A stretch of DNA of 64,000 nt from Fimbriimonadales bacterium. Lineage in GTDB: Bacteria > Armatimonadota > Fimbriimonadia > Fimbriimonadales > ATM1. A program made the translations under genes and the position numbers. Below are positions 45,762-53,849 of this stretch, one piece after another. The notes below the pieces were generated by a model, which did not search any database, was not told where the DNA came from, and saw nothing but the letters and a program-made list of their open reading frames with translations. The DNA is taken from assembly GCA_026129745.1 (NCBI GenBank), contig JAHCHL010000001.1:186001-250000 (forward strand), in the 5' to 3' direction. Positions within the stretch are counted from its first letter, which is position 1. Each line of letters opens with the position of its first letter.

Positions 45762-47078
45762 TCAACGCAGAACCTCGGAGGCTTGCCTCGCAATAAGGTC
45801 TATCTCGTCCTCCTCCACGCATCTCATGTCCAACCTGAAGGCCCCACCTTCTACATATCCGATTACGGGAGTCGGCATTGAACGGAACTTAGCCGACAGA
45901 TCGTTGGCATGTCCAGGAATCGTCACGCGCCAAGAAGGCAGTTCGACACCGGGCAAAGAGCCGCCACCTGGCTCGCACTTGCCGCGACTGGATTCTCCAC
46001 CGATCAACTTAGCAAGCCGATCTGCAAGTGCTCGCACTTCATCGATGCTTCTTGAAAGGTAACGAATAGTCGGAATTTCCGATTCCCTTCTTTCTCGATA
46101 CAGCCTAAGCGTCGCTTCCAATGCCGCTGCAGTCACTTTATCGATCCGCAATGCCCGTGCAAGTGGATTCTTTGCAATTCTTGAGATTAGCTTCGCTTTT
46201 CCTAAAATGATTCCAGCTTGAGGGCCACCGAGAAGTTTGTCCCCACTCGCCGTCACAACGTGCGCTCCGGCCTTTAACGAATCTTGAATTGTCGGTTCAT
46301 GCGGTAAACCAAACCTTTCAGTTTCAACCAGGCTTCCGCTTCCGACATCATCGACCAATATCAGCTTAAGTCTCTTTGCACACTCCGCAAGATCCTTCAC
46401 GGTTGGCTCATCGACGAAGCCCGATATTTTAAAATTGCTCGGGTGACAGCGCAACAGCACAGCCGTGTCGGCGTCGTGAGCAGTTTCGTAGTCCGACACC
46501 TTTGTTTTGTTCGTTGTGCCAACGTCGATAAGAGTAGCTCCAGAAGCGCGAATGACGTCCGGCATTCTGAACGCGCCACCGATCTCAACGCTCTGGCCAC
46601 GAGAAAGCAAGACCTTGCGACCAGAAGCGAGACTGCTCAGAACGAGCAGAACGGCACCCGCGTTGTTGTTGACGACGAGTGCAGACTCCGAGCCGGTCAA
46701 TCGAGTAAGCAAGGACCTAAGTCCAAGCTGCCGGTCTCCCCTTCGCCCCGTTGCGAGTTCGATTTCGAGCGTCGAATGGGAGCTCCCCGCTGCTGCCATC
46801 GCCTCGACCGCTGCCCGAGGCAACCGCGCCCGCCCAAGGCCGGTGTTCAGAATTGTCCCGCTGCAGTTGATGGCGGGGCGATAGGCGGGAGTTGAGATTT
46901 GAGCTGCGAGTTCTGCCGCTCGTGCCGGTATCTCCCTCGGATCTAACCCGTTTCGGCGGGCCTCATCGATGGCTTCGCGGGCTGCATCCACCGCGATTGG
47001 ATGGGGAAATTCGGCGAGTTCTGGGGCAGCTGCCAGCTTTGCCACGCTCGGCAATGTCCGAAGGTTCTTGCCTTCCAC
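45762..47078 (-). CDS. selA: L-seryl-tRNA(Sec) selenium transferase
   Basis: The 438-aa PLP enzyme converts seryl-tRNA(Sec) to selenocysteinyl-tRNA(Sec) using selenophosphate. INCSGTILNTGLGRARLPRA is the family N-terminus, LVVNNNAGAVLLVLSSLASG follows, and the PLP lysine is in VVTASGDKLLGGPQAGIILG. DDVGSGSLVETERFGLPHEP is also typical. Full-length selA, together with a selD whose frame holds a TGA codon (52797-53849), shows that the organism should use UGA as selenocysteine. selB and selC are not in this window. Confidence 0.95.
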   Translation of the reverse strand: MEGKNLRTLPSVAKLAAAPELAEFPHPIAVDAAREAIDEARRNGLDPREIPARAAELAAQISTPAYRPAINCSGTILNTGLGRARLPRAAVEAMAAAGSSHSTLEIELATGRRGDRQLGLRSLLTRLTGSESALVVNNNAGAVLLVLSSLASGRKVLLSRGQSVEIGGAFRMPDVIRASGATLIDVGTTNKTKVSDYETAHDADTAVLLRCHPSNFKISGFVDEPTVKDLAECAKRLKLILVDDVGSGSLVETERFGLPHEPTIQDSLKAGAHVVTASGDKLLGGPQAGIILGKAKLISRIAKNPLARALRIDKVTAAALEATLRLYRERRESEIPTIRYLSRSIDEVRALADRLAKLIGGESSRGKCEPGGGSLPGVELPSWRVTIPGHANDLSAKFRSMPTPVIGYVEGGAFRLDMRCVEEDEIDLIARQASEVLR

Positions 47079-52663: not shown

Positions 52664-52692
52664 TTGACATCTGGGCCGATTTCCCCTATATT
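52664..52692 (+). promoter_or_regulatory. Near-consensus sigma70 promoter upstream of selD
   Basis: TTGACA (52664-52669) and TATATT (52687-52692) are separated by exactly 17 nt. Transcription would start near 52699, at the first of three tandem hairpins. This is one of the best-matching promoters in the window and contrasts with the leaderless-style starts of other genes. Confidence 0.8.
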
Positions 52693-52698
52693 GTTTCC

Positions 52699-52776
52699 GG
52701 CGAAAGCCTCTTCCCGGCTGTTGCCGGGAGAGGAGAGGACTACTGCGGGGGCCATTACAGGCTCCCGCTTCTCTTA
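52699..52776 (+). ncRNA. Structured RNA: selD leader or independent small RNA
   Basis: Three tandem hairpins follow the promoter. The first is GGC-GAAA-GCC (52699-52708, a GNRA tetraloop). The second is an 11-bp stem with one bulge (52707-52718 with 52723-52733, loop TGTT), which shares two bases with the first. The third is a 9-bp stem (52745-52753 with 52760-52768, loop ATTACA) followed by TTCTCTTATT, terminator-like. A purine tract 52729-52735 can also pair with 52768-52774, so two folds compete. A TATGCT box 6 nt before the selD GTG could start selD separately, making this element a stand-alone RNA. I do not recognise it as a known riboswitch or tRNA-Sec. Confidence 0.45.
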
Positions 52777-52796
52777 TTGCCCGGTATGCTCTCAGC

Positions 52797-53849
52797 GTGA
52801 TTCGCCTCACACAACTCGTCGATTGCGCTGGTTGAGCGAGCAAACTCGGGCCTTCGCAGTTGGCGGAGGTTCTGGCGGCTCTGCCCCGCAGCTCACATCC
52901 TAACCTGCTCGTCGGATTCGATACCCACGACGACGCGGGAGTCTTTCGCGTGTCTGAACACCAAGCGCTCGTTCAAACGATGGACTTCTTCACCCCCATC
53001 GTCGACGACCCTTACTCCTATGGCCAAATCGCGGCCGCGAATGCACTAAGCGACGTCTATGCGATGGGAGGCCGCCCAATCACCGCAATGAACATCTGCT
53101 GTTTCGATCCGCAGATGGCCCCGGCACAAGTCTGGGCAGACATCCTGCGCGGAATGGCAGACAAAGTCGCTGAATCAGGTGCAGCGCTCGTCGGCGGACA
53201 CAGTGTCGAGGACCCGATGCCAAAGTTCGGACTCTCGGTAACCGGACTCATCGACCCCACCCATATGCTCGACAACGCAGGCGCAGAGCCGGGCGACCTT
53301 ATCTTCCTCTCCAAACCACTCGGCACAGGGATCATAACAAGCGCGGCCAAGTGGGACGACGAGTTTGCTTTCGATTCGCTGGTCGAAGATCCAGTCGCCC
53401 TGCCACAAGGCGCGACCGTGATTCAGGACTCGCCGATCGGCGTTGCCATCGCATGGATGTCGCACCTCAATCGCGAAGCGTCGGAGAGAGCCCTCGCTGC
53501 AGGAGCGAGGTGCGCGACCGACATCACCGGTTTCGGCCTCGCAGGTCACCTATTCAACGTAGCTCGATCGAGCGAAGTTGGAATCGAGATCGATTCTGCG
53601 GCGTTGCCTCTCTTGCCTCGAATTCAAGAGCTGGTCGAACGCAAAAACCTGACTGGAGGTTCAAAGAAAACTCGCGCACATCTTGGCAATAAGATGACGT
53701 TCGCGGACTCCGTACCCGATTGGCTGAAAGAAGTTGTCGTCGATCCCCAAACCAGCGGTGGTCTTGCGATTTTCAGCAAAACGCCGATTGAAGAATTTGC
53801 ATGCATCGGAAGAACGTTCTCGGGAACAGCACAAATCGCTGTCCGATAG
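52797..53849 (+). CDS. selD: Selenophosphate synthase, itself a selenoprotein (TGA = Sec)
   Basis: The gene reads from GTG 52797 through an in-frame TGA (52833-52835) to the stop at 53849. The start is VIRLTQLVDCAG-Sec-ASKL, matching the conserved SelD active-site segment where other enzymes have Cys or Sec followed by x-x-Lys. After it come GFDTHDDAGVF, LVQTMDFFTPIVDDPYSYGQ, ALSDVYAMGGRPITAMN and LVGGHSVEDPMPKFGLSVTG, all typical. It makes selenophosphate from selenide and ATP for SelA. Without the TGA readthrough only a truncated protein from TTG 52860 would be called, lacking the active site. Confidence 0.93.
52833..52868 (+). other. Sec codon and SECIS-like hairpin in selD
   Basis: After the TGA, bases 52845-52868 can fold into CTC/GAG and GCC/GGC stems around a 9-nt loop (TTCGCAGTT, 52853-52861) with a small internal loop. 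The loop lies 17-25 nt past the TGA, the distance expected for a bacterial SECIS that binds SelB. Pairing is by eye. Confidence 0.7.

Follow-up and report, generated by a model that had tools for sequence, protein, structure and literature searches.

Selenophosphate synthetase (SelD) with selenocysteine (Sec) in place of cysteine at its catalytic position is a known kind of selenoprotein. In a prokaryotic reference set, 19% of SelD genes had Sec, and its position did not vary (Mariotti et al. 2015, PMC4561486). The selD gene described here adds one member to this kind: it shares the protein family (TIGR00476), the Sec position, and the UxxK motif with Sec-SelD/SPS2 and differs from it in lineage only. 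Its RNA element can be compared with the bacterial SECIS (bSECIS) consensus model and its four rules (PMC13188914, Fig. 2). That model consists of one stem-loop, whereas in most relatives of the present gene the hairpin carrying the G-U loop is separated from the UGA by an additional conserved hairpin. A limited literature search retrieved no paper on Sec in Armatimonadota, which does not prove that none exists.

The window analyzed is a stretch of 64,000 nucleotides from a Fimbriimonadales genome (2.62 Mb, 20 contigs, 94.9% complete). We conclude, with a probability of roughly 0.96, that its selD gene encodes a selenophosphate synthetase with Sec at the catalytic position, predicted to be decoded through a SECIS hairpin and SelB. 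The features of the window discussed below are as follows, H1 and H2 being the first and second hairpins of the relatives.

45762-47078, minus strand: selA, Sec synthase (TIGR00474, 474 bits; PF03841), 5.7 kb from selD and on the opposite strand
52664-52692, plus strand: sigma-70-like promoter match (TTGACA-17-TATATT) upstream of selD, by consensus match only
52745-52768, plus strand: terminator-like hairpin in the selD leader, then a U-rich stretch (0.6 expected by chance per region)
52797-53849, plus strand: selD coding sequence with one Sec codon, GTG start, 350 amino acids, Sec at residue 13
52833-52835, plus strand: Sec UGA codon within the UxxK motif (UASK)
52845-52859, plus strand: H1 position, broken here by two mismatches (the third and fourth of five pairs)
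52848-52872, plus strand: predicted SECIS hairpin of 10 bp (nt 16-25 with 31-40), loop AGUUG at 52858-52862
52860-52878, plus strand: H2 position, weak remnant here

Translated from GTG 52797, the gene reads VIRLTQLVDCAG-U-ASKLGPS and continues to TAG 53847-53849, with the TGA at 52833-52835 being the sole one in frame. The product scored 323 bits against TIGR00476 (E 1.5e-96; cut-off, 125 bits), which places it in the SelD family, and it contains AIRS and AIRS_C domains. The sequence-only reading had proposed an in-frame TGA shortly after this GTG with the SelD frame continuing beyond it, and the translation and family match bear this out. Its placement of the TGA at the SelD redox position before a Lys holds as well, as the codon begins a UxxK motif and aligns with the Cys codons of relatives. 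The N-terminal pattern (M/V)xRLT..V.CAG-U-A.KLG is kept in relatives, and the GTG start fits the M/V-RLT position of this pattern.

When recoding is not considered, mechanical ORF calling yields a protein of 329 amino acids from TTG 52860, the start of the longest stop-free ORF. If translation began there or at another internal start, the upstream region would be untranslated and the UGA would be an ordinary stop; that a ribosome-binding site is not clearly visible upstream of GTG 52797 would be compatible with this. However, such a protein would be missing both the catalytic residue and the Lys that follows it, and its TTG codon falls inside the SECIS loop. Furthermore, conservation of the upstream residues and of the Sec/Cys position extends to other families of the phylum. 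We regard a shorter SelD as highly improbable and retain the full-length frame with Sec at residue 13.

The Sec machinery is complete in the genome, comprising selA in the window, selB (391 bits), and a tRNA-Sec with a UCA anticodon (80.3 bits). TGA terminates 482 of 1363 long ORFs, making it about as frequent as the other two stops; therefore, it is an ordinary stop and the genetic code is not reassigned. Two further uses of selenium were considered and rejected: no tRNA 2-selenouridine synthase scored above the cut-off in the genome, which argues against selenouridine as the purpose of SelD, and the best genome match to a Sec-containing formate dehydrogenase has no TGA. A readthrough scan of the whole genome left 62 candidates after coding and SECIS filters, of which selD and three genes of a second family (see below) were accepted. 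Judged by eye, the remaining candidates mostly resembled adjacent genes or short ORFs.

A SelD search covered this genome and 120 relatives, and most carriers had exactly one internal TGA in the gene. The catalytic codon was TGA in 61 and TGC or TGT in 7 of the 68 aligned SelD genes, including the present one. The sequence-only reading had staked its claim on selB and a UCA tRNA-Sec being present, and on close relatives not carrying a different codon that would mark the upstream sequence as noncoding. It survives on both counts: the machinery was found, and relatives have either TGA or a Cys codon at precisely this position. Sec-SelD and SelB occurred together in 57 of 61 genomes, while SelB was detected in 8 of 60 genomes without Sec-SelD (Fisher p about 1e-20), six of which have Cys-SelD. 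The four Sec-SelD genomes in which selB was not detected come from fragmented assemblies with 68-95% completeness. On the SelD tree, Cys-SelD appears in at least three separate places, once among Sec genes of the same genus, where locus L038 of genome G098 is nested among Sec relatives with the same genus label. The closest named relative found, from which the phylum was taken to be Armatimonadota, was an 'Armatimonadetes bacterium' assembly (58% identity over SelD), and only two SelD loci came from the scan of named genomes.

As a separate observation, Cys replaces Sec in the SelD of loci L021, L038, L075, L076, and L078, which belong to several separate lineages, and selB is retained there.

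Numbered from the U of the UGA, the hairpin loop AGUUG of this selD occupies nt 26-30 and begins 22 nt past the UGA. The sequence-only reading had described a SECIS-like hairpin with its loop 17-25 nt after the TGA, and both the distance and the resemblance agree with our computation. The 5-nt apical loop and the 10-bp upper stem lie within the bSECIS ranges (3-9 nt and 4-16 bp), a G occupies one of the first two loop positions, the UGA-to-loop distance lies within 16-37 nt, and the fold energy of -16.2 to -17.2 kcal/mol is below the limit of -7.5 kcal/mol. The local fold of the 43-nt segment (-17.2 kcal/mol) had a z score of -1.8 when compared with its dinucleotide shuffles, and the hairpin taken by itself is only moderately unusual in this comparison. 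When the peptide was recoded synonymously, an equally good fold under the SECIS rules arose in 1.75% of cases, and in none of 400 with an (N)GU loop.

The single hairpin of this gene is not the structure conserved in its relatives. The minimum-energy fold after the UGA consisted of two consecutive hairpins in 52 of 59 distinct Sec-selD sequences, with H1 at nt 13-27 and H2 at about nt 28-48, the latter bearing G37-U38 in its loop. The paired hairpins, at nt 13-48 after the Sec UGA, were observed among selD loci L013-L076. In Sec-selD, the expected pairs fitted in 90% (H1) and 89% (H2) of cells, and a shift of the 3' partner by 1-3 columns lowered the fit to 23-58% and 31-60%, respectively. Two-sided changes occur in H2, for example at 30-46 (GC, CG, TA) and 33-43 (GC, CG). 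When codons were shuffled between sequences that share the encoded amino acid, H2 was fully paired in 48 rows versus a null mean of 8.9 (maximum, 18; 300 shuffles) and H1 in 42 rows versus 33.4 (maximum, 39), a significance that is overstated because the shuffles ignore relatedness. Support from these alignments for H2 as a conserved hairpin is strong, and that for H1 is moderate. G37-U38 also encodes a conserved Val, and thus the H2 loop sequence is partly explained by the protein. The Cys orthologues, including L038 of G098, do not show the two-hairpin fold, and their pair fit was lower than that of Sec-selD (0.66 versus 0.90 for H1; 0.50 versus 0.89 for H2).

As the case for Sec is computational, readthrough of the UGA by a suppressor or by leaky termination could instead be imagined, with Trp, Cys, or Arg inserted. 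The absence of a general codon reassignment and the full Sec machinery speak against such decoding, as do the exclusive replacement of the catalytic Sec by Cys and the retention of the two-hairpin fold only alongside a TGA codon. There is very little room for this explanation, and insertion of Sec is the reading we carry forward.

Among distinct Sec-selD folds, only this gene and L032 of genome G095 formed one hairpin whose loop begins at nt 26. The clade in which the present selD is nested (support, 0.995) otherwise consists of two-hairpin genes and one Cys gene, while L032 lies elsewhere in the tree; therefore, the single-hairpin form is probably derived and of separate origin in the two genes. 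The hairpin of this selD thus looks like a remodelled form. In this respect, the sequence-only reading was correct about the single SECIS-like hairpin but missed the two hairpins of the relatives and the further selenoprotein genes of the genome.

A narrower alternative concerns the RNA element and not Sec itself, namely, that the working SECIS here is still the relatives' second hairpin, whose GGU loop lies 33 nt past the UGA, with the single hairpin being incidental. A remnant with the GGU loop can form, with 7 of 8 pairs in one register and several of them G-U, and a 4-bp equivalent with loop GGUC persists in the contig 14 member of the second family. However, the remnant folds at only -4.2 kcal/mol alone and at up to -7.9 kcal/mol with flanks, compared with -14.2 kcal/mol for the single hairpin, and a GU-containing loop lies 22-23 nt past the UGA in all four UGA genes of the genome. 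We consider this alternative unlikely and favor the single hairpin as the putative SECIS.

The three further UGA genes are paralogous, and each has one in-frame TGA within the motif GHPxxCTUNNG (CTU family). Two were found by the whole-genome scan for coding on both sides of a TGA, and the third was found by homology and a second scan. They and a Cys paralogue lie outside the window, at these positions:

contig 4, 11220-10138, minus strand: CTU-family gene
contig 14, 53594-52416, minus strand: CTU-family gene (L223)
contig 12, 102967-104007, plus strand: CTU-family gene
contig 4, 98150-99217, plus strand: Cys paralogue of the CTU family (TRGQPSCDDCNAP)

Relatives of these genes occur in 52 of 291 genomes of the phylum Armatimonadota, and most matches have an internal TGA. 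An alignment of 26 members has 28 invariant columns, including the Sec column. Besides single-member chance-level matches, Pfam returned only Thioredoxin_7 (E 0.011, 4 of 26 members). Some members show a remote likeness in their thioredoxin-like part to NF041382, NF041383, and NF041199 (VPGUxxT, Trx7/PDZ thioredoxin-like selenoproteins), with NCBIfam matches of 10-20 bits (best E 6e-4, 19.5 bits). These scores are far under the curated cut-offs of 275-350 bits, and the CTU family differs from those proteins in its own motif and in a second beta-strand domain. A confident AlphaFold model (pLDDT 90.8) predicts a thioredoxin-like fold with a second beta-rich domain, and the nearest solved fold is that of the thioredoxin-fold protein AGR2 (E 5.6e-4, TM 0.60 on target). 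No matching entry was found in the catalogue of 119 selenoprotein families (PMC13188914). Taken from sequence, the CTU genes apparently represent an uncatalogued family of thioredoxin-fold selenoproteins.

The CTU genes of contigs 14, 4, and 12 likewise have a single hairpin each, with the loop at nt 26-30, while 15 relatives of the contig 14 gene (L224-L238) have two hairpins after the UGA, with loop GGUC at nt 35-38 in most. One of these, L238, belongs to G095, the genome whose selD has one hairpin; therefore, both forms may serve in one cell. The pair columns of the CTU family hardly vary, so codon shuffles are uninformative there. A more general proposal is that Armatimonadota use a two-hairpin SECIS in which H1, starting about 6-9 nt after the UGA, would serve as a spacer or face the ribosome, and H2 would carry the SelB-binding G-U loop, about 31-33 nt past the UGA. 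The selD gene and the unrelated CTU-motif gene would have this arrangement in common, with both remodelled in the present lineage to a single hairpin with the G-U loop at 22 nt. We give this proposal an even chance.

Upstream of selD, the region 52664-52797 contains a near-perfect promoter match followed by a leader of about 100 nt with two GC-rich hairpins (52707-52733 and 52745-52768; fold z = -3.6). These hairpins were not seen in relatives, and the leader had no Rfam match at the gathering threshold and only chance-level matches below it. An attenuator of selD is a possible function.

For selD, the sequence itself establishes the reading frame, the conservation of the UGA/Cys position, the presence and placement of the hairpin, and the completeness of the machinery. 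From established biology, SelB would bind to the G-U-containing apical loop of the hairpin that lies just 3' of the UGA and deliver Sec-tRNA(UCA) to the ribosome with the UGA in the A site. SelA would make Sec from selenophosphate that SelD itself presumably supplies. In most relatives, the role of the hairpin appears to fall to two consecutive hairpins, the second of which bears the G-U loop; in this selD, H1 is broken, and one longer hairpin would bring a G-U loop nearer to the UGA.

Overall, the selD case indicates that a little-studied phylum commonly decodes Sec and that automatic gene calling can lose the catalytic residue of SelD. The Cys-SelD lineages that retain selB provide a set for studying Sec/Cys exchange. 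Beyond one more Sec-SelD, the two-hairpin form of the clade and the CTU family are the parts of specialist interest. The clade amounts to a natural experiment on the requirements of a bacterial SECIS: Sec and Cys forms occur next to each other, a single gene exists with one hairpin or with two, and the genomes also hold a selenoprotein family that is apparently unlisted.
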